A stretch of DNA of 64,000 nucleotides from Diphasiastrum complanatum (lineage: Eukaryota > Streptophyta > Lycopodiopsida > Lycopodiales > Lycopodiaceae): NCBI GenBank assembly GCA_029204225.1, contig CM055095.1:59696414-59760413 (forward strand). Direction: 5' to 3'. The notes below the pieces were generated by a model, which worked only from the letters and a program-made list of their open reading frames with translations, was not told the DNA's origin and did not search any database. The translations under genes and the position numbers were made by a program. How positions within the stretch are numbered: the stretch's first letter is position 1; every line of letters starts with the position of its first letter. Shown piece after piece: positions 3,570 to 64,000 of the stretch.

Positions 3570-3580
3570 CTCTGATACCA
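3570..3580 (-). promoter_or_regulatory. Primer binding site, element A1
   Basis: The minus strand reads TGGTATCAGAG immediately after the LTR. This is the plant initiator tRNA-Met complement used by most plant Copia elements. Confidence 0.9.
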
Positions 3581-4235
3581 TGTGAAAAATACAGATCCTA
3601 AGTGGATCTAAACTCCAAGATCATTGGCTTGAATGCTTGCACTCCAAACTACATAAGCTAGGAATTGGCAACACATTCTATGCTACCTAGAATGCAAAGA
3701 ACTTGATCAAAAAGAATTTATCACAAATGGAAACTTCCATAAACATCAAGTGCGGCCCAACATAGCATTATACAGTCCATAATACATCAGCCTACCACTT
3801 TTGGAAAGCACCTAAGATCATACACAATAGCTTGAAGACAATACACACAACAATGCTCTCAATGGAGGAAGAAACAATGACAATGATCTATTGATCTCAA
3901 TGAAGCATACAAAAGGTTTCTCCAACCTGTTCTCCACGACTTCCCTACTATTTATGGATGAGGAAGATGACTCTCTCTCCTCTCTCTAGAAGGTACTTGA
4001 CCCTAGATATTCCCTATATAGGAAAAATAGCTAAAAATGGCTTATATGACCAAAATACATCAAAATGGTCTCATTTTGAAGGGTATGAAGTTTGACACTT
4101 CATCATACTGAAAAAATACAGTAAATAAAAACATTGTGGCCTGGTTCACACGTGTGAAACTCCAGAACCAAAACTATTTACAATTTTAGCCAATTTAGGC
4201 CTCAAACTAGCTAGGAAATGTTGACAATTTTCACA
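3581..4235 (-). repeat. 5' LTR of Copia element A1 (655 bp)
   Basis: On the minus strand the LTR begins TGTGAAAATTGTCAAC and ends ATTTTTCACA, directly abutting the primer binding site. It carries the palindrome TTCACACGTGTGAA near 4145-4159. The 245 bp next to the primer site (3581-3825) are almost identical to the 3' LTR of A2, but the distal part, which includes the U3 promoter, is clearly diverged. Confidence 0.9.
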
Positions 4236-15700: not shown

Positions 15701-15868
15701 AAACCTTTGTTGCTCTTGAAGTGTGAGAGGTCTCTCTTCAATTTCTGCAACTATGTCCATGAGTTCATTCAACTCAAGTAAGGAGTCCATCCTCACTTTC
15801 CAAGTAGAGTAGTTTGATGAACTCAACCTTTCACTAGACTCTAGCATGATCCCACCATTGGAAGCCAT
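12776..15868 (-). CDS. Gag fused to a ~765-residue unrecognised C-terminal region (element A2)
   Basis: This is a 1030-residue open frame. Residues 1 to about 263 are a UBN2-type Copia gag ending in the zinc knuckle CFYCGIKGHFANEC and are nearly identical to A1. After the knuckle the protein diverges completely: no protease, integrase or RT motif follows. The remainder starts with a polar region rich in Ser, Cys and Asp. It then has a more hydrophobic half with motifs such as LHQLKAFYDCGGLF and VLHPLDLGDGIVIIAGL, and a hydrophobic C-terminus. I do not recognise a family. An open frame of this length without one stop in AT-rich DNA argues for recent constraint or very recent origin. The start is the same ATG context as in A1. 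Confidence 0.85.
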   Translation of the reverse strand: MASNGGIMLESSERLSSSNYSTWKVRMDSLLELNELMDIVAEIEERPLTLQEQQRFDKKAKRALHIIKMNVTNELLKEVGKCQSASEAWNALKKLFESKSTSRVLTLRRQIFSSRQREGESAHAFILRVKSLSDDLACIDENIKDGEIVQVMLNGLLNEHANLVQSFAIQRVLPSVVDLQEILLAEEHRLQSKLDGASLQGGGEEAFFTKGKFKGKGKGKGKWSKGGNFDHDDHSSSSSSTKNNKSKFKCFYCGIKGHFANECHKKQNARSRLRSNVLLGDDNCCANLASFGESMVNFLDPLDLEDALVLPTSHMESCGAKLASCLYSSTHGLPRLGGSSMVLDGKCKNGKGKEGANFINGVDEDSSLEVIVANDLFVHMEKDGDAKCHSLQEDGCSSNSFHIDVCNHVGKDDGALSMLEGNGSFTSFCDKVICATSGVTFLHKKSRSKVSIMRLGEGDHKSKGREVCEVFKVGCTLNDVFMNDSEEESLSYDSLPKSLSRSSCLKRESTSITLMLKVLRILFLASNIQESSTSYGATIKREVSNFCGASIKRESCEGKGNGRVVLGKIQSMDLTSLHQLKAFYDCGGLFIHGQDGKRLVEEDYMEQLKWQLLQGKGDIIGELIEVCYELKRAVLIRFDTHLHLLYFMLNGNVGIYLLVYDGGIVFTNYSEGSNLSIDEILWDLNHVFEREYLQSFRSEDVHICKIFDVLLEDQEVDLGLLHQHQETSGNSKLVKSIKEETNGQGILDLFLQVLEGSSKVFGSARKCLLTLPHLPNLMYEHCYVNVLKLSNFNKTSSIVLHPLDLGDGIVIIAGLYDQVHEFIQILKGIEVVNMFSFEQSSRSSILVLANWQLVDIVGSSVVCKSCGGTSSISSSGFGHSNGVGNTSFWHSFTQRLSWIEDLQRQGGDGSSFMEIHVAFTICIVKCGGGMQTLVDHFHLQLVCCYFTEKPEMDTWRNSLIEILCSFTCTIFMILCKIDVRNSEASYMDTIIYINYVVSYFVHIRILEKRSILMMEIILKLEQSSVVKLAS

Positions 15869-17029
15869 GATTCTAATGTTTCTTCAACTTTTAGGTTTTG
15901 TCCTAAAGCACTTAGCACTCACTTTTCTCTCAACAAATGATAGATAAAGAGATCTATGAAGATTTAGGACCCTAAAACACTTCTATCTTGAACCTAGATG
16001 GTTTCCAAGCATAGAAAGGAAGATTGAAACACATGCAACACTTTGCACACACTAAGAATGGATTACAAAATCAAACCAACCTGAACACACTCTTGCTTAA
16101 GCTCTCAAACTTTCCATCAAGTGACCAAATCAAGTTATGGTGTGAAGAGTTACTTGCATTCTTAGAAAATACCCAAAACTAGGATGCCAAGATTACCTAG
16201 TAATGAACAAACTTGATCAACATATGATCAATACACTAAGATATTGATTCAACCTGTAAAACCACATGTAAACCACACTTCTAAAAGTTTATAAACTCCA
16301 GCAAGTGATAAATACAAGATTTAGAGGTGAATGAATGAGCACACTTAGTGAATCACAAGACTAGCTTCACTATCTTGTCAAATCTTGGTGTTTAGATGTA
16401 GATCTAAGATCACTTCACATGAGAATGTTCCTCAACCTGTTAAGAACCTGAAAACACACTTGCATAATGGTTAACACCTTCCAGCAAATGCTCCAATCAA
16501 ATTACATAAGGAGAGTTACTTACATGCTCAACAAAGTACACCAAAAATTATGCCAAAATTGATGACAATCTTTACAATATGCTCTTCACAATGGAGCTTA
16601 CAATATGTTCACCCAAAAAAGGGGATCTTTCATCCAAATGGGAGCTTTGCTCAGCCTTTAGGAGAATTACAACTCACTCAAAAGAGCATTTGTCATCCAC
16701 TTAAGGAGAAGTTTCATCCACTTAAGGAGAGTGTTCATCCAAGAATGGAGATTGTCAACAATAGGATTGAAAAGAACATTGTTAGTATTGAATATGCACA
16801 AGCCTCACAATCACAAATGATTAGGTGTTATGATCTGATCCAAAATAGTTTCTTTTCAGCCTCTGATCTTCAATAGACCTGAAATATGCTTTTGATCCAC
16901 AAGTTCAACTCACAAAACAAAGGTTAGTAAGATTTGATCAACAAAGCAATGCAAAATCATGCTAGAACTTGATCAAACATCCAAATATCACCAAAAATGG
17001 AATACTTACTGTAAATAGAAGCCAACCAG
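15869..17029 (-). other. Untranslated leader of Copia element A2
   Basis: This is nearly base-for-base the leader of A1 (2409-3569), with only scattered substitutions. Because A1 and A2 are so similar here yet unrelated after the gag knuckle, the 5' region has been exchanged or homogenised recently. Confidence 0.8.
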
Positions 17030-17155
17030 CTCTGATACCATGTGAAAAATACAGATCCTAAGTGGATCTAAACTCCAAGATCATTGGCTTGAATGCTTGC
17101 ACTCCAAACTACATAAGCTAGGAATTGGCAACACATTCTATGCTACCTAGAATGC
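17030..17155 (-). repeat. Primer binding site plus truncated 5' LTR of A2
   Basis: The minus-strand primer site TGGTATCAGAG occupies 17030-17040. Next to it are only 115 bp of LTR (17041-17155), corresponding to the U5 end. The LTR stops within the sequence GCATTCTAGGTAGCATAG, and what follows is unrelated microsatellite-rich DNA, which marks a rearrangement breakpoint. Confidence 0.85.
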
Positions 17156-33866: not shown

Positions 33867-34331
33867 TTAGAGTATTTTTGCCTCTATTTCTGCCTTTTCC
33901 CACTGATTTAACACAAAACCGGCTTCCAAAAAAGCAATAGACAGCATTCGAAATACAAGAATCACTACTAAAAGAACAAGAAATCTGAGGAAAAAATCAG
34001 CATAACCAATAAGGTAACTGTTCCTTCTATAATGAAGAAAATTTTTTCTATCATATGGATCTAGAAAATCAATCAATCTTTTTTTGCTCAAGTCAATGTA
34101 TCCAGAGAAAACAACTAAGGAGGAAGACCTTTTCGGAACTTCTTCAGCTACATAGCCAAACACTTTTATGGCAATGTCTCTCTTCACAAAAATAATTTTA
34201 TATGTATTCGGAGGGTATTTATGCCCGTTTGAGAAATAGGATAACGCTTTAATTGCCATTATTATTGTCGCAGCATCTGAAGAAAATTTGCTATGATGAA
34301 TGCAAATCTCTTTATTTACAAAGCACTTCAA
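33867..34331 (-). CDS. Hypothetical 154-residue protein with one membrane segment
   Basis: The open frame starts MKCFVNKEICIHHSK and encodes a soluble N-terminal part (IKALSYFSNGHKYPPNTYKI). A Ser-rich SSSLVVFSGY stretch follows, and then a strongly hydrophobic helix FFLRFLVLLVVILVFRMLSI near residues 112-131. It lies on the same strand just downstream of cassette gene P1-A, 48 bp after its stop codon. No family is recognised, and there is no counterpart beside P1-B in this window. It could be a real small gene or a chance open frame. Confidence 0.35.
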   Translation of the reverse strand: MKCFVNKEICIHHSKFSSDAATIIMAIKALSYFSNGHKYPPNTYKIIFVKRDIAIKVFGYVAEEVPKRSSSLVVFSGYIDLSKKRLIDFLDPYDRKNFLHYRRNSYLIGYADFFLRFLVLLVVILVFRMLSIAFLEAGFVLNQWEKAEIEAKIL

Positions 34332-34378
34332 ATAATTGGACAGGGATGAATCCCTTTGTCATGATCCATGGCCTTACC

Positions 34379-35583
34379 TTAAATATCCCTGTTTGTTGCA
34401 AAGGCATTCACCTCAACAATAGCCTGTAAAATACGAGCAAAGGTCACATGTCTTGTAAAACAAAATAACTATATCTGAATAAAAATCTCATTAAGATAAA
34501 ACCAGATTTACCTACCAGATCACGCTCATCAGCTTCAATAAGTGCAACAATATGTAGATCATGACCAGCAACAATGGTTGTCGAAGCACTGGATGGACCA
34601 GTTTCCGAAGACTGTGACACATATCTGCTCCAAATTTTCAGAAATTCCTCCTCACCGGGCAAATTTGCCTGGTATGCCCTGCTTTTAGACATGATTGACT
34701 GCAGTGCTTCAGTCCCATCCATCCATTCATCTCCTTCTTTGTAATAAATAGAAGCACGTAGATCATCATCACCGTTGAGATCTATGAAGTCCTCGAATTC
34801 TTTGATGAAATTAGACAAAATTGATAATATTTCGTCCTCCCTCAAATCAAGAACATCTCCAACATCATTCAGTGAGAGGGTTGCGACACTATTCATGTAA
34901 TACACTGGCAAATCGAGGGGAGTCTTGGTTTTGTCATATGAATTCACATCAGATAAAAAAGAAATGGACAATGCACGAGACTCGGTTGGGTCGTATATTG
35001 AAGTCAATCTTGCCTCCTCGTCAGCACCCAAGGCGTCATCAACAATAGCTGACTCTGATATCACAGAATCAGTTGATGATGAGGCACCCTCAATGCTAAG
35101 CACCGAAGTTCTTGCCTCATCAGGAATAAGAGCACAAAGATAAAACACAAAGCCCATGCCTTCCTGCAAAAAATGACATGATCGATTGTGTTGGTCACAA
35201 TGGACCACACGTTTAAAATCACTCACGATTTTCGTGAATCGTCGGTTGTGGCTTTGCTTTGAAGATGGTTGGGCAAGTACTAGGTCATGGAAATGGATGA
35301 ATTGTAGATTATCCATCATCAACATAGACTGATTCAAACTATCATAATACTCCTTATACAGCACTGAAAAATATGATTTATATTCTGATCCAGACCTCTC
35401 AATATTAAAAGACATATTGAAATACGTCTTATAGTGACCTATGTAGTTACCAACACCGGATTCAACGAGGAAGGCGTGCAAAGCATAATCAAAAGTATTA
35501 GAGGATGACACGGCCGTCTCGAAAGTATGACCAATATGGCCGAGTATCGCTATGACGCGGGGTGGCAGGGAGTCAGAAGACAA
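34379..35583 (-). CDS. Cassette gene P1-A, unknown function, one intron
   Basis: Exon 1 (35583-34516) and exon 2 (34423-34379) flank a 92-bp GT-AG intron and give about 370 residues from MSSDSLPPRVIAILGHIG. It is paralogous to P1-B (57105-58536). Both share the motif LREDE followed by (I/M)L (about 34830 here), an acidic Ser-rich middle, and an exon junction in the same phase between DERDL and AIVEVNAFATNR. P1-B has DEGTE and DAVELDAFAMRR at that junction. A TATA box (TATATAAAT, minus strand, about 35787) sits upstream, beside an array of CACGTG boxes shared with a divergent H3-like gene. No enzyme or DNA-binding motif is visible, and I do not know its function. The frame is intact. Confidence 0.6.
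34424..34515 (-). other. Intron of P1-A (92 bp, GT-AG)
   Basis: The donor is CTG followed by GTAGGTAA and the acceptor is TTTTACAG followed by GCTATTG. Its position and phase 0 match the 92-bp intron of P1-B at 57447-57538. Confidence 0.7.
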
Positions 35584-36532
35584 TCAGGACTTCCTCGCGT
35601 GATGGCGATATTGGCGAATGACCTGATATCGGAACGACGCGAGGGATCTTAGATCGTCTAGAATCTCTGAAAGATTCTTGCGTGGTAGCGATACTGCAAA
35701 TAAAAAGAACTGTTCACACATTGTGAGATACAGGGAGTGAAAATCCAAAACTTAGCGAAATGTTTTAACTGATCAAACAACATTTATATAGCTAAAACCA
35801 AGAAAATCCAAGCCGTACACTTGTCGATCCAACAACGGATCAGATCTATGGCGCGTAGTACAACTGTCCACACGTGCTACAATACACGTCAATCTGCCAT
35901 TTGCCCACGTGCCCACACGTGCAAGATCACACGTGCCAGAACACACGTCACTAAACCATTGGACCACGTGGACACACGTGCAAGTTTCACACGTGAGGAT
36001 ACAGAGGTGTAGGTCCCACACGTCAGGTACTGATTGGGCCACGTGACCACACGTGCAAGAACACATGTCACTGATCCATTCGGCCACGTGTTTCCATGTG
36101 GGTTCCCACACATGTTGATCCAGACATGCAGTTTCACACGTGCGTATACAGACGTGTGGTTCCACATGTCAGCTATTGACTGGGCCACATGTCGCTGGTA
36201 TTCACACGTGCCAATTTTTTCCCCTATATAAGTCCATTCCCGGAGATTGTACAGATTTTCGAATAATTTGCTAGCGCATTTGATTGCATTCATACGAAAT
36301 GCATTCGTGATATCGCCATCACGCAAGCGACCTCCTCTCCATGCCCGTTCCTTACACCCTCTCACGTCGTAGCGATATCAGCTTGACTTCCCCAGTATCG
36401 CCATCACGCGAGCCCCTGCCTCTCCCCGCCTGACTCTGCCACTCTCTCATGTCATAGCGATATCATGGTTAGAGTTCTCAGTGTCTCTTCTGTTGTGTCT
36501 CTATCCTCGCGTAGTATAGATATTCGGCCTCA
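35584..36532. promoter_or_regulatory. Divergent promoter with a dense G-box array
   Basis: Between P1-A (-) and the H3-like gene (+) lie about sixteen ACGT-core elements in about 345 bp (35870-36212), roughly twelve of them full CACGTG. They are arranged as repeats beginning GGCCACGTG. A TATA box faces each way: TATATAAAT on the minus strand near 35787 and TATATAAG on the plus strand at 36225. Beyond each TATA, both leaders carry copies of a motif close to CTCGCGTGATGGCGATAT (35594, 35665 and inverted near 35630 on the P1 side; 36308, 36360, 36398, 36450 and 36508 in both orientations on the H3 side). The symmetry suggests co-regulation. G-boxes are bound by bZIP and bHLH factors. Confidence 0.7.
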
Positions 36533-36664
36533 ATGGATCGGACGAAGCAAACCACTAAGCTTACCAGTTTTGTTCATCCGTCCCGTCCCCAGACATTTGA
36601 ACCCGTACGTCCGCAAAGACCCAGCCGTCCATGGTTGAGGGACATCAGGGCGATAGGCAAATAG
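36533..36664 (+). pseudogene. Histone H3-like N-terminus, copy A, histone fold missing
   Basis: A 43-codon frame starts MDRTKQTTKLTSF and keeps the H3 N-terminal RTKQT motif around Lys4. It goes through a Pro/Arg-rich tail (RPQTFEPVRPQRPSRP) and ends in WLRDIRAIGK, matching the start of the H3 alpha-N helix (LREIR in canonical H3, WIQDIR in copy B at 56273). It then stops at 36662, and no alpha-1 to alpha-3 sequence follows before the end of P2-A at 36841. A plus-strand TATA box lies about 300 bp upstream. It is either a truncated pseudogene or a gene for a tail peptide. The close match to copy B in start motif and helix supports the assignment. Confidence 0.6.
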
Positions 36665-36840
36665 AAAGTGGGCTATTACTGAATGCCACAAATATATTAT
36701 ATCGATGTCAAAAACAATGTACATTTTTCAAAATACTAAATACAAATTGCTTGATGAAATCTTGAAGTCATTTGAGACTTCTTTGTATTTCTTTTTTTTT
36801 GAAAAAGTACATTGATGTTGCTCGTCTATCATCCCAATGT

Positions 36841-37630
36841 TTATGCGGTTTCAACAATTTCTACGCTTCTATTTAAGTCTTTGCACCCTATGTGACTTTC
36901 TTGTCTTGGTCTTACCTGTACATCAAAGAAACTTGTTAAACAATATCAACATTGAGATTATGTCAAATGAAATATTGCAATATCAAAAACACTAAAACAT
37001 GTTCAAATAAAATCATTGAAAGTCATTTCAAATGTGTACTGGAATAAATACACATACACCTACCAATCTCTCCTTGACTCGAAAACAGAAGTGGTTAGGA
37101 ATATCATATTGCAGCAATGTAAGCTCTGATCGAATGTGATCGAGTGTCCAATCTTCCTCCACCTCAATTATTGTAAGAGTAGAATTTTTTTTCCTCACTT
37201 GAATTTTTATTTGATCTTGATGATTCACTGTAAAATCCTGATCCAATGCTTTCCATCCGTTGCCAACTTTGGAACATCTTCTATAATAAAATGTTAAAGA
37301 AAGCACTTGTTTTTCTATAAGATATCTAAATTTCATTGACAATCTATTAAGTATGCACTCGATATTGCCATTACTCTTTTTATCCCAATGATCATCAAGG
37401 AGGCTTGATAACATATTGTCTGTTAAATCACTACAAATAAACATTGTCACTGTTTTACGAATATTACATTCAACAGAAAAATCAACAAAAATTGCAATAG
37501 GCAAAAACCAGTGCAATCTATTGTTTTTTGAACCTGTGCTACATTTCATACAGTTTTGAATGTCCATAAAAAACCTTGATCGGAAGCTCTCTGCTATATT
37601 GGAGATGGTCATGAGCCCACATTCGTGCAT
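36841..37630 (-). CDS. Cassette gene P2-A, partial, one intron
   Basis: Exon 37630-37064 and exon 36915-36841 flank a 148-bp GT-AG intron (36916-37063). The protein aligns with the C-terminal half of P2-B (53861-54867), with shared blocks GSK, IRKTVTMF versus FRKTNTMW, LSLTFYYRRC versus SLSSIYRRYK, and a C-terminal segment IKIQVRKKNSTLTIIEVEED. That segment has the look of a beta-grasp (ubiquitin-like) fold. The last exon VRPRQESHIGC matches IRRRAKKDHEC of P2-B at the same intron phase. The N-terminal third is missing or too diverged to see. The function is unknown. Confidence 0.5.
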
Positions 37631-37639
37631 CGTGGTTTG

Positions 37640-39674
37640 GATTCGATTTCTTTGCCAGAGTGTATGTGTCTAAGGACGTGCGATGTGTGCAAATTGATTT
37701 CATTTACTTTTCCCGATTTTTCATGACGCTACATGGATATTGATTTTTTAAGAAGCGGTGCAATATTGACCCCATTGAACAAAAATGTGGATCTTCCTAG
37801 TGATGCTTGCACTTTTTATAGTGCTGATAGCATGGTTGAGCGTGATGACTATCATGTGTACGCAGTAAAGTTTTGAATAGCTGGCAACCGAGTGGATCCC
37901 CTCCACATAAGTTGGTGTTGAAGGCTGACATGATAGTGATGTTGTTGTGATCGATAGCGTCACACAAGAGATTGTGCAATGGTACAAAACTTATCATTCG
38001 TAGATTGGGCAAACAGGTCATAGAGGCGGAGATAGTGACTGCGAAGAATATAGGAAGTAGAGTTCTCATTCAGTAGTTTGGTTGGAGTAAAGGTAAGGGT
38101 TAGAGTTAGGATTTTAGATTTTAGGATTATGAGTTAAGATTTTAGAGTTAGATTTATGGATTATGGACATGCAATAGGTTTAGGTTTAGATGTTAGGGAA
38201 GATTAGGATTGGGGTTTTATGTAAAAACTGAAGTATTCAAAAAATTTGCTAAAAGTTACAATACACAAAAATTAGAAAGAGCCCAATTGGTACAATTTTT
38301 TCAGATTCGTGCAAAATGTGATACAAAATCTAGTTTTTTTGGGATCTAGCATCTAAACCTATATCCTCGTCTGTGCCTATGCCTCTAGACCATCAATGTC
38401 ATCATTAGAATGTGAAGAAGTGGAAGATCTATCCTCCTCATTACTATCAATCAAAACATTATCTTCATCCCTATCTTGTAGTCTGAGGTCATCCTCTACA
38501 TGCTCTTGTTTTTCTTGACGAAGGTCCAACTTCAACTACATATTCTTTTCTTGGCAGTCTTTGATGAATGATTTCCTTTGTTGTTTTTCGAAACTAGTGA
38601 CCCAAACTGGTTAATTCAAATTCACAAACAACCTTGAGCCTCAAGACAAGGTGACTTAAGTGGAACCGATTTTTGGTTGTGAGACGTTTTCTTTACCATT
38701 TGAGTTTGCAATCATTTCAGGACATCCTTTCTTGTAATGCATCATGATGTTTTGTTCGATACTTGTGTACATTAATAGATAGTCTCACCATTCTCAGACT
38801 TTGACAAATCAACAGCCTTGCATAACCAAAAAGGATGGCCAAGAAAATTGTCATCTGCAAGTGTGGCAGCCATTGTACCCACCTTGATTTCCTGCACATT
38901 TCCCCTCTAAAAGTTAGGGCCACTTGGACGTTGAAAGCGTGCAAAAGGCATCTTTACAACGGGCCCATTTTGAGTCCTATTATCCCCTAATGCAAGGTGA
39001 TCACATATATTAATAGGTCAATTACTAACCTCAATTCAAGGCTATAATTGCCTTGCTAGTATACTTGGGATGAGTAGAGACAACAAAGTCGGCATGGGAG
39101 AAACATTTGGGACAACACATCCGGCTTGTTACTTCTTTATTTGAAGGAATAGATCACAACAAAGCCGACAGGTCATTTGTTTATAATTTGGATGGGCACC
39201 TGCAGTGCTAGCCCCACACCATCCAATGGTGATGAATGAGGCTAACTAGGTTAAAAACAACTTTCTATCTCCTTGGTGGTGTGAGAGCTGTGCACCAATG
39301 CATGTGCATCTACGGTGCACTCTCTAATGAGAGCCCTCATTAAAGAGTGCACCACAAAGCAGATGCATCAGCGGGGCCTCTGCACAGGCCGCACTCCATC
39401 CAAGGGATCACATATCTTGTTTTTCCTTAGCTTCATCGGACGGAGTGGGGCCACGAAGGAGTGCTCGTGCACATGGAGTGCACACATTCCTTAAGTATTC
39501 CCTCATTGGGAGGACACGACACATCACTTCTACAGTACTCGCTTGCTCGCCGCTCGCTGAGTGCACAGCCCTGTCATCTATCTAGTCAAGGATTTCTGAT
39601 CCGCAGCTAAGCTGCAAGTAAGTCGACGTTGTGTCGATCAGAAGATCAATATTCTTAAGTAGTAAGTATTAGTA
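37640..39674. other. Intergenic, weak coding traces
   Basis: Degenerate TTTAGG-like sequence occurs at about 38095-38200. A minus-strand trace TMAATLADDNFLGHPFWLCK at about 38816-38875 looks like part of an old transposon protein, but I could not extend it. 39000-39674 includes the 5' flank of the dioxygenase gene, with no clear TATA box. Confidence 0.4.
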
Positions 39675-40719
39675 ATGGAAACTTTCGAGCCAATTGATCT
39701 TTCAGGCCTGAATGATGATGTAAAGGCTTCTTCCATCAGGGCTCAGATTGCTGAAGCCTGTGAAAAGAATGGCATCTTCCAAGTTATCAATCACGGCGTG
39801 CCAGTAGAGCTCATGGACAAGCTGAAAGAAGTGGGCCACAAATTCTTTGATCTGAGCAAGGAAGAAAAGCTTGTAATTGCTGCAAAGCCAGAGATAGCAG
39901 CTGATGGCTATGTCAGCTGTTTGAACCTTACTGATCCTGAGCAGAAGAGCTGGCGGGAAGCTGTGGAGATTCAAACTCTCCCACTGTCCGGAAGGCAGTA
40001 CAAGTACTGGCCACAGCAGCCAGCTGAACTCAGAGAGACCCTGGAAAAGTACACAGTAGCAATACTGAATCTAGCTCGTATGCTGCTGGATGTCATCTCT
40101 GAGAACCTCGGGCTGAAACCCACGTACCTGAGGGAGGCTATGGGGGATCCGGAGATACAGCAGAACTATCATTCCAGTGTTATCGTGCCTGCCCAGAGCC
40201 AGAAAATTTTTATGGCCTGCCTCCACACTCCGACATTGGATGCCTCGCCATTGTGATGCAAGAGGGCGAGGGATTGCAAATCTTTGACGAATTGAACGAT
40301 AAATGGGAGCTGGTGCCAGCTTATCCGAATGCATTGGTCGTTTATCTAGCAGATCAAACTGAGGTTAGTGCAACACGCAAATATTGCTGCTTAAATCTAC
40401 CTCCCTTCACGCTCCATGGAAAAAGTTTTAGCTCATCTGTAGTTGGCAACGTTATATTGTTGTATGAGTGACGCTGCTGTATGTTTATGAACTGTAGATC
40501 ATTACGAATGGGAGATACAAAAGTCCAGAACACATAGCTATTGTGCACAGCCAACGCACAAGGAGATCCTACGTAACCCAGTACCATCCAGGAATGGAAC
40601 AGAAGATCTTTCCCGCACCAGAGCTAGTGGACACGAAGGTAGGTTCTGTGTACAGGGAATTCTTCTTCAAAGATTATCGGCAGGCTTTGACAGAGGGACG
40701 TGTAATAAAAAACGTCTAA
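39675..40719 (+). pseudogene. 2-oxoglutarate/Fe(II)-dependent dioxygenase, one frameshift
   Basis: Exon 1 (39675-40363) starts METFEPIDLSGL and contains the DIOX_N region ending in GIFQVINHGVP. After a frameshift near 40180 it continues CPEPENFYGLPPHSDIGCLA with the first iron ligands His-x-Asp, then LQIFDELNDKWELVPAYPNA. A 134-bp GT-AG intron (40364-40497) precedes exon 2, which carries IITNGRYKSPEH with the distal His and RRS as the 2-oxoglutarate-binding Arg-x-Ser. It ends at TAA 40717. The family includes plant hormone and specialised-metabolism oxygenases such as the SRG1/DMR6-like groups. All three iron ligands are present, so apart from the one frame break near NYHSSV the gene looks intact. 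A sequencing error or a very young pseudogene are both possible. Confidence 0.85.
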
Positions 40720-52119: not shown

Positions 52120-52578
52120 CTACAAAGTGATTTAAGACCAAGTATTCCAACAATTGATCTAATGAGCTCTAATCTTGTGTAGATTGGTAGATCAATTGAG
52201 TCTAACACCCAATCAATCTTGTGGATCTGATTTGGATCCATTATTGGTCTTTAATTCTTTGGAATCTCACATCTTGCATTCTACACCTTTGTGAGATTTC
52301 TAGTCATTTGTCTTGTGATTTCTATGAATGATTGCTATCTAGAACTATTGTACTTGTAGTTTCAGGTTCAGGTCGTACTATGGACAGTACACACGTGTGA
52401 GGCCACCTTCACTATTTTATGATGTGTTGATCCATTGCTCTTGCTTAAATCCAAGTGCAGTGAATCTAGATCAAGATCTAATGTGTAGAACTTGATAGAT
52501 CCATCGATTAAGCAACCAATAACTCTCTATGATTGTTAAGTTTAATCATTATTGTCCTAAAAACTGAAAATTTTATTA
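52120..52578 (+). repeat. Chimeric LTR: fragment of the 31-kb type joined to a B-type LTR
   Basis: 52150-52260 (ATTGGTAGATCAATTGAG, TGGATCTGATTTGGATCC) resembles 31460-31540. From about 52290 to 52578 the sequence instead follows the B-type LTR seen at 63050-63340 (GAATGATTGCTATC, GTTTCAGGT). It ends AAATTTTATTA before the primer site. Confidence 0.55.
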
Positions 52579-53171
52579 TGGTATCAGAGCTAAGTAAGAG
52601 AGTGATCATTTGAATCATAAAAATTGCAAAGATCATTGGCATAATTTGTTTTTGGCCAATATTAGTGAGGGCGAGTTCATCTAAAGTGATAGTTTGTATT
52701 CATTTGGATCAAACCAACTTGGAGGTTGTGTATGTACTTTTTCCACGTGTGAAATCGTACAACAACTTTCATTTCAAGTTACTTTCTATTTATTGGTCTC
52801 AAAATCACAATTCTAGTTCATTTTTTGTGCTTTTTGAAGCATAGTATTGATCTAGATTCAATCTAGCTAATGGCTATGCCAAATAGAGTATTGGATCATT
52901 GATGCATTTCTTTTTTGAGTCTAAGGTTAGGTCTTAGAGGCTGATTTGTTCAGATCCTTAGTTGAAGAGAAATCTCTAAGAAAAGTGTAAAGCAAAAAAT
53001 TTTGTGAGAGTGAAAGCTATGATTATCTGGCAAGATCTTTGTGTATCATTCAAGCTTGTGTGCTAGTTTGATAGAGACAAGGCTATAGGCAGTGTTGTAA
53101 GCTTTAGGCCTTTTATAGATCTTTTAAAATTCAGAAACCTTTGTGATTTTTAGAAGAGCATTCATTCTACA
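52579..53171 (+). other. Primer site and leader of Copia element B'
   Basis: TGGTATCAGAGC occupies 52579-52590. The leader resembles 63341-63907 through to the gag start and carries CCACGTGTGAAATC near 52743. Confidence 0.75.
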
Positions 53172-53580
53172 ATGTCATCCATGGGTGGATATTTGTTGGA
53201 ATCAAGTGAGAGACTCACTTCACAAATTATTCCATTTGGAAAGTGAGAATGGAATCACTCCTAGTGATCCATGATCTCTTTGACATAGTTCTCGGAGTTG
53301 AGGAAGAGCCTCAAGCTCCCCAAGAACAAACCAAATAAAAGAAGAGAGCAAGATTAGCTCTACATTGCATAAAGTTGAATGTATGCAATGACCTCTTGAA
53401 AGAGGTCTCTTCTTGTGCCTCATCCAAAGAGGCTTGGGATTCTTTAAAGAGCATCTATGAATCCAATAATACTTCAAGAATCCTCATGCTAAGAAATCAA
53501 GTTTTCCAATGCATGAAAGGAAGTGGAGAGAATGGACAAGAGTATGTCCTTAGGATCAAATCACATCAAAGATTCCAATG
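53172..53580 (+). pseudogene. Copia element B' gag, truncated; holds the intact A2 target site
   Basis: ATG 53172 gives MSSMGGYLLESSERLTS. A one-base loss near 53220 shifts the frame, and there is a stop at 53335. The later part (NVCNDLLKEVSSCASSKEAW) matches element B gag at 12111. Homology ends at about 53578. The codons TCATCCATGGGTGG contain the ATCCA site (53177-53181) into which A2 inserted in other copies. Confidence 0.8.
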
Positions 53581-53860
53581 AGCATTGAGTGCCCCATACA
53601 TTTTTAACTTTTGACTGGGTTTACATGCAACCATCGGACAAAGGAACTCACAAGGTTGCAAAGAGGAAGCGAAACAACCAAGACTGCCATTGAAAAGGAA
53701 GGATCCACGAATTCAAGATCGACCAAAACAGCGAATACCTTGCAAATGTGCAACATGTATACATGCGTCGAGATATTTTATTGGATGTGGTTGTTGCTGA
53801 TAGAACCATACAGTCACATTGTAGGTCTCACCTCTTTTATTCTTGTGCTAACTATTATGT
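53581..53860. other. 5' flank of cassette gene P2-B
   Basis: No element homology was recognised. A possible short upstream exon (ELTRLQRGSETTKTA) is not supported by splice evidence. Confidence 0.4.
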
Positions 53861-55315: not shown

Positions 55316-56647
55316 ATGTCGGAGGAAATGGCACGGACGAAACAAACGGCTAGAGATCCCAGAGTGACTGTATTGCTCCATAGGGATGCACTAGCCACCC
55401 TCGATGAGAGAGAGAGACGGGAGAGCAGAAGCGGGAGTAGGAGTCACAGCCCTATAGCGTCTCAGGAAGATCCGGCCACTCAGCGTGAAGCTGAGGAGGA
55501 CATGGCCCATACAGCAGCTGCACAGGAGGACCAGACTGAGCAGCAGCAGCAAGAAGACCAGCAGCAGCAGGAGGACCAGTAGTAACAGCAGCCACCACGA
55601 GAAAAAAGCCCTTCTTCGACGGCAACTCGACGGGAGAAAACAATGAAGTTCCTAGATGAGGAGCTTGCGACATTGGGTGAGTTGCCGATTCTAAATTATT
55701 CTTTCTTCGACCCATTTCCACCAACAATGGGCATGGACACATCAAATTTAGGCATATCGGGGGACACCACACCCACCGTGTCACCTCCAAGTCACGGACC
55801 GGTGATGGGCCCGATGATGTCGTTGCTGGTGGGTGGTTCTGATGAGGGCATTCTGATGTCGCACACAACAAGGATGAAGCAGAATGCGACCCATAGATGG
55901 TCAGAGAGAGGAGCACACAAGCGAAAGAGAAAGAATCCTCGCAAGACAGGCTCTACATCAAAGCGACGGAACCCTACAGCTCAGCAGCCATCACCACTAC
56001 CCACACCGCCAACATCGCCTCCACCTCCAGTGCCTCTGCCCCCACTGCCTCCACCGCCTCCACCACCTCCTCCACTACCTCCACCACCACCACCTCCACC
56101 ACCACCTCCAACACCACCACCTCCACCACCTCCACCGCCTTCAAGTTCTGCCGCCAAGTAGGACCGTAGAGCGTGGCAGGGATAGGCCGGCCCCTCGTGC
56201 AGCACCATGGGCTGGAAAGAAGCTCCGCAAGATGCAGCCACCACCTCCTCGACCACGTAGAAAGCGCAGGATCGCAAAGTGGATCCAGGATATACGGAGC
56301 TATCAGAAGTCCATACAATTTTTGATCCCTAGGGCCCCTTTTGTGAGGCTTGTAAAAGAAATAGTTGATGAATTTTCCTTGGGGAACAGAGTTACGGCAG
56401 ATGCGGTGTCCGCGATACAAGAGTCTGCGGAAATGTACCTAACGCAGCTCTTTGAGAACTCATTTTGTGTGCAGTGCATGGGAAGAGAGTCACAATGCTC
56501 CTGAAGGATCTCCACCTAGCTAGAAGGCTAAGGAGAGAGCGCAATGAAAAATATCATGTACATGATTTTATTTATAATATACTGAAGATTTGGTGTCAAG
56601 TATCTTACAGAATTTCAGGTTATGTGAATGCAAATCGTTGTGATTGA
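55316..56647 (+). pseudogene. Divergent histone H3-like gene with long Gln/Pro-rich tail
   Basis: The frame opens at ATG 55316, and a second ATG at 55328 gives MARTKQTAR, identical to the first nine residues of canonical H3. Asp-Pro follows instead of Lys9-Ser10. The tail of about 310 codons is polar, then Gln-rich, then a long poly-Pro run (55981-56160). From 56223 the frame encodes a basic patch (RPRRKRR) and an ungapped H3 core: WIQDIRSYQKS (alpha-N), FLIPRAPFVRLVKEI (alpha-1), AVSAIQESAEMYLTQLFEN (alpha-2), then LCAVHGKRVTMLLKDLHLAR (loop 2/alpha-3). The breaks are TAG and TAA at 55580-55585 inside the Gln tract, a frameshift in the poly-Pro run and a one-base loss near 56460. Loop 1 has canonical H3 length, so CENH3 is not indicated. 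The C-terminus extends about 35 residues past the usual end. Confidence 0.8.
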
Positions 56648-56795: not shown

Positions 56796-56890
56796 TCGTG
56801 GCGTGAAAATCATGCCAGGGCATGACCAGGGGATGTTTGACCTGGTCAAACGGGCCCTGGTCGCGCCTTGGCATGATTTTCATGCCACGA
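56796..56890. repeat. 95-bp near-perfect inverted repeat
   Basis: TCGTGGCGTGAAAATCATGC at the left is mirrored by GCATGATTTTCATGCCACGA at the right with one mismatch. The inside is itself nearly palindromic (GTTTGACCTGGTCAAAC). It would fold into one long hairpin and is followed by an A-rich run. It may be a foldback MITE or a small-RNA precursor. Confidence 0.7.
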
Positions 56891-57104: not shown

Positions 57105-58536
57105 TTAAGCATCATCTCCTTCATCCTCATAAGGGCCAATTAAGCCCGAGAGAATGAGCCGGGTCTCGAATCCAGGGCAAAAATCATTCAAAACGGCTTT
57201 TCGGAGGACACAGTAAGCCTTTGGCATTGACGGTGACAAGTCCAGCTCACCAATGTGCTTGGAGAGTGCTTTGCATTTAAGAAGCTCTGTCTGTCCATCT
57301 GGGCTGTACTTGTTGCTGAAGTAGAAAATAAAATTGTTGGACAAGTTCCCAATGTAGTGGGCCATAGACTTGTCCAGAGTTCCTGCTTCAACTTTCTCCT
57401 GAGCGCCACCCCTTCGCATTGCAAATGCATCAAGCTCCACTGCGTCCTGCATTTGATTCAAATTATTGCAAAATGAGTATAATGAAGACAAACAAACATA
57501 ACAAACACACGCAAGTTGAATTGTTGGGTCAGACTTGCCTCAGTGCCTTCATCAATGTCTTCGGTTTGCACAAGGTCAATTCCTTTGCCTTTGTACTTCA
57601 CGTCAGCAATTTTCCCTTCCAGTACCTTGAATGGCCTCATTTGAACTGGTGGTGGTTGAAGCGTTTTTAATTGGCAAAGCACGCTTGCTCGGTGGTGTCC
57701 ATGTCATGCCTGATCAGCTTCTCATACGTGTCGTCGGGCTGGGTGTGGTCGAAAGTGGAACTGCCATTCTGCAAATTTACCAATGCTGCCAGCATCTCAT
57801 CTTCTCGCAAGCCGAGAATATGTTGCAAGTCATGCATGAACACATACTCCTGCCCATCAATGATGATTGGAGCAAGGCCATGGATTCGAAGCACGACATC
57901 ATCAGACTCATCTATATCTTCTGGCTCCGCTGATGTGAATGCACATGTCGCCTCTTGCGCAGCCAAGACTGCTTCGTGCTCCGCAGATAAATCTTCCTCT
58001 TCACCCGGGTCGTTCATCTCGTTCACCTGCTCACTGGGATTGTATTTGTTGCTGGCCACAGTCGCTGGAAACTCATTAAGCAAAAAAATAACAGTAATCT
58101 CACCGGATAGAAACTTCTTTCCTACACTTTCAAGATCAAAAGTTTTCAGCTGATCCTTGGTCAGCTCCAAGTAATGATCGTTACCCAAGTGACTAATAAA
58201 TCTGTTGAGACGAGCGATAAAGGGTCTATCTCCTTTTCATATATAACTAAGCAAGTTATATGGAGTCCACATGATAGTTGAGCCAGGAATTTGTATGGCA
58301 TAAGGCTTCAAAGATTCATCTATATACTCACTCACGTACGTGAATGCATCCGTATTAGCCCGTAGAGTGGCAAGCGTGTCTATTCTACCGGTAAACATAC
58401 AATAAATACGATCTAATTGATCTAAAAACTCTGTGGGGGCTAGAAGATTGGCCAACTCTATTTTAGGGGATGACAATGTTATGCAACTAAGAACACTAAT
58501 TGACCAGCAAACTAGTAGTCTAATTGAACAAGACAA
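57105..58536 (-). pseudogene. Cassette gene P1-B, unknown function, one GC-AG intron
   Basis: The minus-strand frame from 58536 contains KIELANLLAPTEFLDQLD, a TGA at about 58245, then KTFDLESVGKKFLSGEITVI. An acidic segment follows, then YVFMHDLQHILGLREDEML, which shares LREDE with P1-A. After a frameshift near 57660 it continues MRPFKVLEGKIADVKYKGKG to DEGTE (57539). A 92-bp intron (57447-57538, GC donor, AG acceptor) precedes DAVELDAFAMRRGG and a final exon that runs to 57105. P1-A has its intron at the same codon boundary. A minus-strand TATA box (CTATATAAGAG) is at about 58598. The function is unknown. Confidence 0.55.
57447..57538 (-). other. Intron of P1-B (92 bp, GC-AG)
   Basis: GAG followed by GCAAGT is a typical GC donor, and AATGCAG followed by GACGCAG is the acceptor. 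Position, phase and even length match the P1-A intron. Confidence 0.65.
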
Positions 58537-58741: not shown

Positions 58742-61393
58742 CTATTCCATCTCATTAGTTTTCGTAGTTTCTCTAGCACTGTTTTCCAAAACATTGGATC
58801 TTGGTGTCCTCGACATCCATCTCTTTCCAACTCGGACTCTAGACATCCTCCATTCTTGATGCCTTGTTCTAGCATTAGAGGACTTCCATGCTGTGTTTCT
58901 GACTGAATTTGAATTGGAGATCATTGAACACAACTCTTCAGTTCTTGTGTTTTGAAAGTGTCCTTGGCCCAAAACTCCTCTATAAAACCATTGGAATATC
59001 TCAACCAATGCATTGCTAAGACCCTTTCCTCCGCCATGCCATGAATTTTTGAAATATGCAGCCTTTGCCCTGTAATAACTCTTTTCCATACCTTGCGTAT
59101 TCCAAATAGCTAATGATCCATAGATTTTCATAAACCAAGGTCCATGAGCATAGAAGATGTGCTGTTCATAGAAAATTTGTATTAGTTTAAATCTTTACAA
59201 ATACATAAATACGAAAGTAAAAAATATGAGACACACATACCATATAGTGAGTTATGTGTGTTTCTCCCCATGCATCGATCATCAATTGAGTAAATGTTTT
59301 GACTTCTCTTGTGAATCTATCCAAATCTTCATCTCTCACAATCTTTTTGTTGATAGTTTGTGACAAGGCATCAAATGCTTGCCAAACCTTAGCACGTGTC
59401 TCTGCCATGCGAGGATCTGAGCCAATATTTGTTGTGCATTGACATATTTTCTTCCAGTACTCCCATTCAACACTGCTTTACATGCAGTATGATTTGATAA
59501 TAGGTGACTCGCTTTCGCACCACCCATTGAAACTTTTGCTGGAACATCTTGCGTTTTTCCACTCATCTCAATGTCTTTGGTAGGACTCATGTGGCCCCCG
59601 TGCAATCCCATATCGGATAAAATTATCTCTAGATTTCTAATGCTAACATCTGCTCTTGATTTGGGCTGCATGTTCCATGTGTAACAACAATGCAAAAATA
59701 ATAATTTGTCTAGTATTCGTAATTCACCATGCATTGTGCAAAAATGGACTCTTTTGTGAGGAATGTTCAACACAGGACTCCAAGCTTTGTCTAGATTGTG
59801 CCTATTTGGTGCAAGACGTTGATTGCAATTCAAAATACTTTTGTTCCACCCAGATTCAAACATACAATATATACAAAAATTCTTTGCATTTGCACCAAGA
59901 CCACAACCGTACATGCATTTCAAAGTCTTCAAATCAGTAGCTAGGTGCCATTCTACAGCAAAGCTTTCTCCTTCAACATTGAGCAATTTGCTTTCATTTT
60001 GTGCATGTATTATCTTAAATATACTACATTTTTCAAATAGCCACTCCAATATGTCATGAGACTCCTTAGGAACTTCAAATGCAGCTATCCACCATATGTG
60101 ATTTTCGGATTGCATGCTAAATTCTTTACAATAACTTCCGCCAAACTGTTGCAATTCACGATTCATGAAGGTGATTGTGACATGTTCAAGTTTACGCCCT
60201 TTTACGATTTTTGCTTCGTCCAACTTAATAACAAATATAACTTTACCTCCGCAATCTGTAAAACAGAAATTTTATTACGAAAACATATTAGTTGAAGAAA
60301 AGCATACAATTGAAAATCGAAATCCACAATACATGTTCTTACCATTTGTTCTAACTTCGTAATGTCGGATCATCATCACTTGGACCTTTTCCAGATCTAA
60401 GAATATATTATTGCCTTGATGATAATGAAAACATGTCGAAGGTCCTTTCTTCTTATTGATTACTGTAAAAAAATCCTCAATATGTGGAAACTTTCTTAAT
60501 GCAGAGAGAAAATCGAATTGCATTGTCGTTTGGCAGATTCAACAAGTTTATAAGTAGATATTATTTGATGGCGTTTTAACCCATTTTTGTCAGAGTGTTT
60601 CATATACTTCTTCAAAGCTCTATACCCCTTGCGACTCACACCTCCTTAGTCACATGCGTACACCATCTCTTTAACATTTGGATTTGGCTTGGACTTGTCG
60701 ACTAGCTTTTTTGCAATTCTCAAGCGAATTGAATCACTTGTTTCATCTTCCACAATCTTTATCAAATCTTTACCCTTCAAAAAATGTTTCATATATTTTT
60801 CGGCAATAAAATCTTTTCCAACCGTCTTTTTCAAGAACTCTTTTGTGTCCCTCATACGTCTTTTACTGGCACCACCACCTGGTGCCAAAGCTTCTAGTTT
60901 GTGTCTCTTAGTGTTTTCATTTTCTGCTTGCTGATCCATCGAGACTCTACGCTTTCGTTGTAAGCCATATATTGTCCTCTGAAATATACTGATTGAAGAT
61001 TGCAATTCTTCAATTTTTGCGACAGAACTGGCAAGCTCTATTTTCAAACCATTTATCTCCTACTCCAATTTCATATTTATTCTATGCAATGACTTTAAAT
61101 TGTCATTCATACTCAATATATGAATGTTTGCCGTATTTGCCAATGTCTCAGCTTGGATTCTTCAAGAATCCATTGCTTGACAATAGCCAAGAATGAGGGT
61201 ATAAATCACCTCTTACCCATAGGTCAATATATTTTTTTCCTTCTAATCTCCAACAATGCATGTCATACGGATTTAAGTTAACACCCCATGTAGCTTTGGT
61301 GGTCGCATAATCCTTCTCTAACTTCACATGTAAGTGATACTTGGTTGTCATCTTGAAGATGTCGAATTTCCCAAAAGAATCTATGTAGAACAT
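58742..61393 (-). pseudogene. Spliced transposon-associated protein of unclassified family
   Basis: The order along the minus strand is an N-terminal globular part (61393-61148), a coiled coil (about 61130-60950) and a basic linker (ENTKRHK). Then come EFLKKTVGKDFIAEKYMKHF, a stop at 60646 and GVSRKGYRALKKYMK. The intron 60256-60342 (GT-AG) follows, then CGGKVIFVIKLDEAKIVKGR. A block FAVEWHLATDLKTLKCMYGC precedes a Cys-rich motif NFCIYCMFE. After a frameshift near 59420 comes a segment ending THITHYM, then intron 59162-59240 (GT-AG) and HIFYAHGPWFMKIYGSLAIW, NTQGMEKSYYRAK. This architecture (a K..GDG-like strand, FLAM..G...CIWC-type Cys motif, terminal YGSL..FS.QG.E) is the one I know from repetitive, presumably transposon-encoded proteins of cnidarians and other animals. 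The plant relationship is inference. Confidence 0.5.
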
Positions 61394-62080
61394 TACAATA
61401 TACCTTAATCAAATGGTGTCAAAGTTCAATGTGAACTAACCATGATATAAGCTTTATTAGGCATATACGAGTTTCCATCCCTAGGGTCCTATTGTATTTA
61501 GGACAATGAAAGGTCGTCCTATACTAACCCTACTCTAGTTGTAATTTGTAACTTACCTATTAGTTGCCTATTATAGTCTATGAAAATGAGGGCTACATTT
61601 AGGCCTTAACTCTTGCTCACCTTGTATGGTAACCCAAGGTAAAGGTGCCACGTAGGATTGATTAGCACTAAATTAACTATGATTAGAAAACTTGTTTAGG
61701 CAAGGAAGAGGCCCTTTTTGTGTCCAAAAAGTGTCCAAAAAGGGCCCTAATGTATATTGCAGATGTCCAATATCAGTGTGTACTACATTTAACACACATG
61801 CAGATTCAGATTGAACCTAGTACACATGCACTTAAAAACTAAAATTTGTAGTAGAATACAATCCACTAAAATAAGCAAACTCTCGATAAACAAATCCAAT
61901 TTACTATATGATATATGTCTATCAGATCCAATGAGATTCCATAATATACTAGAGTAAAGAGATTTACACTTTCAAAATGCACAAAATTCTTAAAGGCTAA
62001 TCGAGTCACTTTCCACTTGACCTTGCTAGTCTAAAACTTTCAAAGGAACAATCTCCTCAAACAGAGACAAAAAAGAGAAA
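61394..62080. other. Intergenic, no feature recognised
   Basis: AT-rich, with a direct repeat GTGTCCAAAAAG near 61720-61740. No gene or LTR could be supported. Confidence 0.45.
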
Positions 62081-62527
62081 ATGAAGCAATATCCAGTTCA
62101 CTCCATCATCAGCTCACTGATGTATGCAATGCTCTGTACGCAACCAAACCTTACATACTCGATCAGTTCACTTAGCCAGTTCCTATCGAATCTAGGTCTA
62201 ACCCATTGGAAAGCACTCATGAAGGTCATAAAGTACGTCCAAGCAACCAAAAATCTCAGCATTTGTTATGGAGGCAGCCAACCTGCCAATATTCTTGAAG
62301 GATACATAGATGCAGATTGGGTAGGAGATATCGATACCAGGAGATCAACTTCTGGATTTGTATTTTTATACAAAAGTTGCAGTCACAATTTGATGAGAAG
62401 ATCAAAGCATTGGAAGATTTCCATGAAAAAGCGAACAAGGAACCTGAGAAGTTGTGAAGACTTTTCCTACCAGGGAAAATGTGTTGAAGATTGTCACTTC
62501 TCACTTTTCATTTTTTATTGTAAATAA
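62081..62527 (+). pseudogene. Copia RT/RNase H C-terminal fragment
   Basis: The open frame gives SIISSLMYAMLCTQPNLTYS, HWKALMKVIKYVQATKNLSI and LEGYIDADWVGDIDTRRSTS, the end of Copia RT and the start of RNase H. After VFLYKS the RNase H sequence is replaced by unrelated codons, so the later catalytic residues are missing. It is a truncated piece of a different element from the LTR that follows. Confidence 0.8.
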
Positions 62528-62534
62528 AGATCAA

Positions 62535-63340
62535 TCATGAGTACAATGTTCATGATCTGATTTCACACGTGTGGAACCTATTTCCAGGTGTAAAATAAAG
62601 TACTTTTTATATTTGTAAATATCCACTTTGATTTTGTATCAATCAAGTTAAGTGTGAACATGATATGACTAGTTTTTAGTCAAGTTGACTAGTCACCTAG
62701 AAGTTAGCTTATCCTTGCATGTGCATGAGTAAATGCTCCCACATGGCAAGTGGATGTTCACATGTGTGTATAGAGTTCTAGAAGATAAGAGCTGACCATT
62801 TTCCTTAGATCCTATTCTGTAGGGAATATTTCTAAATTCTAGGAGACTAGCTCTTTGGATTTTAGCCATATTCTAGAAGGTCAACTTTGGATAAGGATCA
62901 AGGATGGATCAAATGGATAGATTTGAGTGATGTGGCACTCTTCACACATGTGAAGACCTGCTGGGCTGTACCAGACTCGTGGATGTACTTGATCCATAAA
63001 AGGATCATCATTTTGCTAATGAGATTGATGAGACTTTTGCATTGTGCACTTTTGTGAGATTTCTAGTCAATATTAGTAATTTTATTGAATGATTGCTATC
63101 CAGAACCAATGTACTTGTTGTTTCAGGTGCAGGCCATACAGTGGATAGTACTCCACACTTGTGAGGCTGCTCTCACTTGTTTATAAAGATTTGATCCATT
63201 TCTCTTGCTTAAATCTAAGTGTAGTGAATCTAGATCAAGATCTAAAGTGTAGAACTTGATAGATCCATTTATTAGGCAATCAATAAGTCTCTATGATTGT
63301 TAAGTACAATCATTAATGTCCTAAAACTGAAATTTTATCA
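62535..63340 (+). repeat. Copia element B LTR (left end approximate)
   Basis: The right end AAATTTTATCA abuts a primer site. The right 300 bp align with 52290-52578. CACACGTGTGGAAC lies near 62563. The left boundary is set only by the end of the RNase H fragment. Confidence 0.55.
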
Positions 63341-63917
63341 TGGTATCAAAGCCGAGTAAGAGAGTGATCATTTGATTCATAAAACTTGCAAAGATCATTG
63401 ACAAAATTTGTTTTTGGCCACTACTAGTGAGGGCGAGTTCATCTAGAGTCATAGCTTGTTTCTATTTGGATCAAATCGACTTGGAGGCTGTGTATGTACT
63501 TTTCACACGTGTAAAACCATACAACAACTTTCATTACAAGTTACCTTGTGTTTTTTGGTCCTATAATCTCAATTATAGTCCAAATCTAGTGCTTTTTGAA
63601 GCATAGTATTGATCTAGATTCAATCTAGCTAATGCCTATGACCAAATAGAGTTTTGGATCATTCAAGCATTTCTTTTTGGAGTTTAAGATCAGATCTAAG
63701 AGGCTGATTTGTTCAGATCCTTAGTTGAAGTGAAGCCTCTTGAGAGTGAAAGCTAGGAATTTTTGTCAAGATCTAGTTGTGTATCATTCAAGCTTGTGTG
63801 CTAGTTTGATAGAGACAAGGCTATAGGCAATCTTGTGAGCTTTAGGCCTTTCATAGATCTTTAAAATTCATAAATCTTTGTGATTTTCGAAGAGCATTCA
63901 TTCTACAATGTCATCCA
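63341..63917 (+). other. Primer site, leader and first gag codons of element B
   Basis: TGGTATCAAAGCC at 63341 is a primer site with one change. The leader parallels 52579-53171. The gag ATG is at 63908 and reads ATGTCATCCA, where element B sequence stops at the A2 insertion site (ATCCA, 63913-63917). Confidence 0.78.
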
Positions 63918-64000
63918 TGTGAAAATTGTCAACATTTCCTTGTCTAGTTTTAGGCCAAAATTGCTAAAAATGGCACATAGTTTAGGATCTGACTTTTCAC
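63918..64000 (+). repeat. Start of an A2-type LTR, off window
   Basis: TGTGAAAATTGTCAACATTT and the following sequence to the window edge are identical over 83 bp to the U3 start of the A2 3' LTR (complement of 12680-12762). It sits in the same target site of element B as A2 does at 12115, but on the opposite strand. Confidence 0.9.

Follow-up and report, generated by a model that had tools for sequence, protein, structure and literature searches.

A Divergent Histone H3-Like Gene in a Multi-Gene DNA Transposon of the Clubmoss Diphasiastrum complanatum and Its Proposed Role

Introduction

Histone H3 genes have been found inside DNA transposons of two fungi, and these two elements are close precedents for the subject of this report, a multi-gene DNA transposon of the clubmoss Diphasiastrum complanatum that carries a divergent H3-like gene together with three further genes, here termed gA, gB, and gT. 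One truncated copy lies in a stretch of 64,000 nucleotides (assembly GCA_029204225.1, contig CM055095.1, positions 59,696,414 to 59,760,413, forward strand), called the window below, in which the original prediction, made from the sequence alone, had described a lineage-specific H3 variant near two unknown genes. In Pyrenophora tritici-repentis, the available text of PMC3538342 describes a hAT transposon with a long form of ~5.6 kb and 26 near-identical H3L copies, and its authors consider it possible that the fungal H3L is an unused passenger. The Pyrenophora and clubmoss elements share terminal inverted repeats (TIRs), a transposase of their own, an open reading frame (ORF) of unassigned function, multiple copies, and a divergent H3-like gene that matches neither H3 nor CenH3 and has insertions in its N-terminal tail (PMC3538342, same text). 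The clubmoss element differs in its putative RAG1-like transposase, its length of 8-9 kb, its two further genes, its at least 150 scored copies, and the ~320-residue tail of its H3-like protein. The second precedent, in Pseudocercospora fijiensis (PMC6710886, in the part available), resembles it in being ~9.5 kb long and in carrying H3-like sequence in hundreds of decayed copies, but is a hAT element with a 20-bp TIR and an 8-bp target-site duplication (TSD), whose amplified H3 copies have been inactivated by repeat-induced point mutation except for the original gene.

As to the enzyme, the nearest described systems are the RAGL/ProtoRAG and Transib elements, whose TIRs start with CAC and whose TSDs are predominantly 5 bp; the Transib hosts named are protostomes, cnidarians, fungi, and echinoderms, plants not being named in the available part of the source (PMC7204232). 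The clubmoss element has in common with them the predicted transposase fold and genes transcribed inward from both ends, but its TIRs start with CATTAGGG rather than CAC, its copies, which have diverged, show no TSD in five of five left/right pairs, and neither gA nor gB contains a kelch (RAG2-like) domain detectable by Pfam. Among the best-ranked matches in the open-licence literature, none was recognised as reporting, for any plant, a transposon that carries H3 or a transposase of RAG1 type. In the parts available, a survey of plant H3 variants covers one lycophyte, Selaginella (PMC4357034), and the word Diphasiastrum is absent from PMC11687628.

An H3-Like Gene Integral to a Four-Gene Transposon

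Four genes, gA, H3, gB, and gT, recur in one order across copies in the genome, and the H3-like gene is almost certainly an integral gene of the transposon rather than a neighbor of it. A search of the window's assembly (1.74 Gb, 5,176 contigs) with a 73-residue core piece gave at least 150 scored matches (the best of 4,366 first-look candidates, window included) on many contigs, all with E <=2e-28, of which 117 are open and 33 hold a stop in the matched stretch. Twenty copies of ~10 kb, picked among the 150 for long open frames, were compared by tblastn; 18 contain at least some of gA, 16 some of gB, 13 some of gT, and 11 some of each of the four, mostly in the window's order and orientation. 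With gT as query, at least 133 scored matches were obtained (the best of 12,025 candidates); a scored gT lies within 8 kb of 68 of the 150 H3 copies, against 0.18 expected, and 68 of the 133 gT copies have an H3 partner. Of these 68 pairs, 66 have gT and H3 on opposite strands and 67 have gT downstream of H3; the median distance is 3,657 bp. Because both lists hold the best-scored candidates only, these pairing counts are lower bounds.

The dispersed copies are bounded by inverted repeats of 37 bp. On the right, the sequence ...AAAAAGGGCCCTAAT ends the nine loci listed, with one-base differences between copies, and the sequences differ beyond it. On the left, homology to the window ends at 53562 in ten loci, all of which share sequence further upstream. 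Some 540-680 bp outward, CATTAGGGCCCTTTTTGGACTCAAAAAGGGCCTCTTC or a variant of it by one or two bases closes five of six flanks; the sixth (L031) has only 83 bp in common with them. The left end is the inverse of the right end: in copy C12, which spans ~8.9 kb from end to end (~8.2 kb in copy C6), 34 of 35 columns of the inverted repeats agree, and an outer CA is found in 18 of 22 distinct ends. The inverted repeat is predicted to fold into a hairpin. CACWRTG, the TIR motif of Transib, is absent from the zones scanned on both sides of the window block.

These results alter the original prediction in one respect and leave it standing in another: a divergent, long-tailed H3 gene is present, and in the searches made all its relatives come from the window's clubmoss genome or from D. 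complanatum, but it is a transposon gene and not a host variant, and the two unknown neighbors turn out to belong to a set of four co-travelling genes. The alternative that the original prediction had itself raised, low-complexity DNA fused to a common H3 pseudogene, is ruled out, since tail and core recur jointly in other copies.

Reading Frames, Tail, and Histone Fold

In frame 0 from the ATG at 55316, the H3-like gene of the window reads MSEEMARTKQTARDPRVTVLL... The exact H3 N-terminus, MARTKQTAR, which the original prediction had reported correctly, begins at Met 55328; it is preceded four codons upstream (MSEE) by the in-frame ATG, omitted from that account and common to other copies. The second ATG (55328) has what we take to be the stronger start context; if translation began at the first Met, ARTK would lie inside the protein instead of forming its free N-terminus. 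The Lys4 context is present, and Asp-Pro stands at Lys9-Ser10, as had been described: instead of a tail ARTKQTARKS with K9, K27, and K36, ARTKQTAR is followed by DP, and the remaining tail is unrelated to that of H3. It is because the canonical H3 tail beyond ARTKQTAR is absent that we speak of an H3-like gene. Between Met 55328 and the Trp of WIQDIR (56280) lie 317 codons, close to the ~310 of a Gln/Pro-rich tail first estimated, with 21% Pro and 7% Gln in the frame-0 part. The breaks noted earlier are also real, comprising adjacent TAG and TAA codons (55580-55585), a further stop at 56159 where the reading moves to frame 1, and a return to frame 0 near 56456-56466 in the core. Stops are rarer in these frames than in dinucleotide-shuffled sequence: the tail frame has 2 where shuffles average 8.3 (as few in 7 of 1000), and the core frame 56166-56455 has none where they average 4.6 (as few in 6 of 1000).

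The fold itself, whose non-detection by HMM search the original prediction had named as refuting it, is found by sequence profile along the whole length of the alignment to H3. Pfam Histone matches the main piece (E 3.3e-17), PDB H3 chains match at E 3e-16, and the C-terminal piece alone scores E 0.0039, below the Pfam cut-off. The alignment to plant H3.1 is ungapped, as predicted, with 48 of 96 residues identical; the divergence is confirmed, and the earlier figure of ~45% by eye was slightly low against the measured 50%. The His and Asp that we take to form the H3-H3' bundle are present in the core.

Parentage of the Core

The H3-like family forms a single clade (100/100) on a long stem. In the best tree it is joined to three plant CENH3 (79/90; 77/89 in an earlier tree with three named proteins), and this might suggest a centromeric parent, namely, a gene derived from plant CENH3 that may act at centromeres, or an element that may target them. 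The core also contains the stretches LIPRAPFVR and TADA, presumably CENH3-like, and the long variable tail, the MARTK start, and the IP-x-APF-like alpha-1 are likewise features that we take to be shared with plant CENH3. However, plant CENH3 has an insert in loop 1, whereas the H3-like core has a loop 1 of canonical H3 length without it and travels on a transposon, and the core shares more residues with H3.1 and H3.3 (50% identity) than with the five CENH3 rows (43-48%). Grouping with H3 keeps a p-value of 0.11 in the approximately unbiased test (p-AU; 0.107 in the earlier tree), i.e., it is not rejected. The 79/90 tree was built from the window and 10 of the 24 aligned family cores, the three named proteins being left out; in the trees several comparison rows, including the three plant CENH3, were entered by hand, and the CENH3 rows come from species other than clubmosses. 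The support for CENH3 is not decisive, the H3/CENH3 tree does not settle the parent, and we consider centromeric descent unlikely.

Selection across Copies

The ratio of nonsynonymous to synonymous polymorphism (pN/pS) was pooled over 25 copies with a codon bootstrap, copies without an ungapped match being dropped from each count. Twenty of the 25 had been selected by the length of their H3 frames, and most are decayed, so that all the ratios blend earlier constraint with subsequent drift and may be biased towards H3. The H3 core has been under purifying selection across copies, with a pN/pS of 0.54 (0.40-0.72, 24 copies) and a mean dN/dS of 0.51. Among the tail pieces, tail2 has a pN/pS of 0.61 (0.43-0.89, 22 copies) and tail1 one of 0.69 (0.43-1.12, 15 copies), for which 1 is not excluded. 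For gT, values are 0.45 (0.32-0.64, 9 copies) in the last exon, 0.75 (0.63-0.93, 11 copies) in the central exon, and 0.59 (0.41-0.91, 9 copies) in the N-terminal piece; for gB, 0.77 (0.64-0.93, 11 copies) in exon 1 and 0.67 (0.46-1.00, 16 copies) in exon 2; and for gA, 0.88 (0.76-1.01, 11 copies), which is near neutral. The H3-like gene is one that was formerly constrained within the TIR transposon.

Intact relatives, whose existence in the same genome the original prediction had proposed to check, are found in four of the 25 copies, where the frame is unbroken from the N-terminus through the core (439, 416, 398, and 365 aa); two of these four have the exact MARTKQTAR. A protein search with the core picked up three short predicted proteins of D. 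complanatum (O6H91_05G054700, 13G100400, and 07G108800) that are 79-86% identical, and a long-query protein search with the H3-like gene gave 0 of 158 candidates. Because uninterrupted long frames exist in the genome, the long frames seem to be missing from the searched protein database. In the 33 decayed core copies, the stops are TAG only in 27 rows, include TAA in 5, and TGA in 1, and this TAG excess is what C-to-T mutation of CAG codons would be expected to leave in methylated DNA.

These data bear on the suggestion that the transposon took up a host H3 or CENH3 gene by transduplication and carries it along unused and drifting. Fungi provide documented cases of H3 capture by a DNA transposon (PMC3538342; PMC6710886, both in part), 21 of the 25 examined copies are without one uninterrupted frame, and tail1 is compatible with neutrality; however, the core and tail2 ratios are both below 1, and a MSEEM-ARTK-type start (13 of 25 copies by the strict pattern), the tail, and the core recur jointly. 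An idle passenger is, in our judgment, improbable.

The Putative RAG1-Like Transposase and the Proposed Role

The product of gT is very probably the RAG1-like transposase of the element, a predicted activity to which two lines point: among the folds listed for its homologues, the predicted one is that of RAG1/Transib transposases, and gT of the window carries the pattern D, D, CxxC, HxxxxH, and E, residues that we take to correspond to the D-D-E, CxxC, and HxxxxH of RAG1-like transposases. The putative RAG1-like transposase family of the clubmoss has 18 homologues (P0001-P0018). A viral origin was rejected, as scans of viral contigs with the H3-like gene and gT, and tblastn of the H3 piece against a phage collection, gave no relative.

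We propose that gT would move the element and that the H3-like protein would pair with host H4 and enter nucleosomes, probably on or near the element; incorporation is suggested because the H3 fold is ungapped and the presumed H3-H3' residues are present. A further step would be that such nucleosomes escape H3K9/K27 methylation, leaving the element transcribed or open to its transposase, because the K4 end is kept, Asp-Pro stands at K9-S10, and an unrelated acidic, Q-/P-rich tail replaces the K27/K36 region. Taken as a whole, this explanation of the feature as the H3-like gene of a multi-gene TIR DNA transposon is given a probability of roughly 0.6; the anti-silencing role by itself is tentative. 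The boldest version, that a plant transposon driven by a RAG1-like enzyme encodes its own H3, forming nucleosomes that have K4 and are unmethylatable at K9, K27, and K36 in order to escape silencing, and that it represents a RAG1-type lineage outside animals and the fungi named for Transib, is doubtful.

Several results weigh against this proposal. Host H3 is expected to have a pN/pS near zero, and the core of the element is far from that; the sample was weighted towards long H3 frames (20 of the 25 copies); tail1 does not exclude neutrality; and gA is near it. The structure model of the H3 relative P0019 is weak (predicted local distance difference test, pLDDT, 62; best Foldseek E 0.002), and the histone fold is for that reason assigned from sequence. 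Sequence profiles of gT found no RAG1 in PDB and no family in Pfam, the gT model has a mean pLDDT of 55 with RAG1 Foldseek matches at E 0.06-0.09, and the spacing from the first to the second acidic residue is 95 in the window gT vs. 108 in RAG1. Rearrangements are seen at L012, L019, and L023 among the 20 loci, and 82 of 150 H3 copies and 65 of 133 gT copies are without a scored partner within 8 kb. The missing TSD belongs here too, and such duplications are not made by all TIR transposon superfamilies.

The weakest alternative, a family of clubmoss-specific host H3 variants lying merely beside transposon genes, could appeal to the listing of the three short predicted proteins as ordinary hypothetical proteins, but is highly improbable and already refuted for the copies examined by the recurrent order with gA, gB, and gT, the sharp common ends with 37-bp TIRs, and the number of scored copies on many contigs, unless TIRs and order are an artefact of segmental duplication.

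Canonical H3 hardly changes, whereas here about half of the core residues are replaced and the tail is several times longer, and selection has maintained this divergent H3 within a mobile element of very many copies. If entry into nucleosomes is true, a question of long standing becomes testable, namely, whether a transposon alters the histone itself, rather than blocking the writers, to dodge H3K9/K27 silencing. A RAG1-like enzyme in a plant element would also bear on the origin of the RAG lineage, although the ends of the element are unlike those of RAG/Transib.

Insertion Site and Other Features of the Window

The features of the window copy are collected in Table 1.

Table 1. Coordinates of the element and its surroundings in the window
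Feature	Position	Strand	Remarks
Copia piece, left	52260..53561	+	LTR (long terminal repeat), primer site 52579-52590 (presumably tRNA-Met-type), gag (Retrotran_gag_2, E 6e-10)
Truncation point	53562..53585	+	Left ~600 bp with left TIR lost; joined to Copia gag
gA, function unassigned, 277 aa	53861..54694	+	Sub-threshold PB1 hint (E 0.06)
TATA-like box for H3-like gene	55195		
H3-like gene of element, broken in window copy	55316..56647	+	MSEEMARTKQTAR N-terminus, 317-codon tail, H3 fold
Histone-fold core	56259..56545	+	Frame 1, then frame 0
gB second exon	57105..57491	-	
gB first exon	57667..58188	-	
gT last exon	58742..59161	-	HxxxxH 59161/59146, E 59086
gT central exon	59336..60223	-	D 60220, D 59935, CxxC 59875
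gT N-terminal piece, putative RAG1-like transposase gene	60646..61047	-	
Right TIR	61705..61752	-	CATTAGGGCCCTTTTTGG..., short internal duplication in window copy
Copia reverse transcriptase (RT)/RNase H piece, right	61947..62524	+	Similarity to other Copia-like ORFs of the window and to a consensus
Further LTR/leader copy	63037-63919		

The Copia pieces are the torn insertion site of the element; for the right piece, Pfam gave no Copia family match. Our first reading, a gene captured inside Copia, had been taken from the flanking LTR-like repeats and is ruled out, since the ends of the element are its own. At 53574 and 61927 lies TCCAATGAG, a direct repeat of 9 bp, which was ruled out as TSD because the true right end is 61752; among 2,826 background pairs, 12 to 79 have a repeat as good, depending on zone length. 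A Helitron end (hairpin and CTAA before T) was also rejected, since its sequence recurs in inverted orientation on the left.

A palindromic unit of ~91 bp lies at 56796-56890, downstream of the H3 gene, and two or three matches to it occur at this position in several other element copies. A near-identical inverted copy of the block lies ~163 kb off on the same contig (G000:C4:59589956 vs. window 56262) and is either a segmental duplication or an assembly effect. A second block at 33867-37669 on the minus strand contains a gA relative (31% identity, E 1e-14, z 22) and, less surely, a gB relative (exon 2 z 7.0 and 3.9; exon 1 z 3.6, with one shuffle higher, and 1.9) whose intron position is shared; neither H3 nor gT left any trace in this block, which is perhaps a related element family.

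Elsewhere in the window, a direct repeat of 2,084 bp (1612-3695 and 15072-17155), 99.4% identical, overlaps Copia-type gag ORFs and probably represents young retrotransposon copies. Finally, an open frame at 39675-40256 on the plus strand matches the Pfam domain DIOX_N (E 1e-23), N-terminal in plant 2-oxoglutarate dioxygenases, and is either a host-type gene or a fragment of one.
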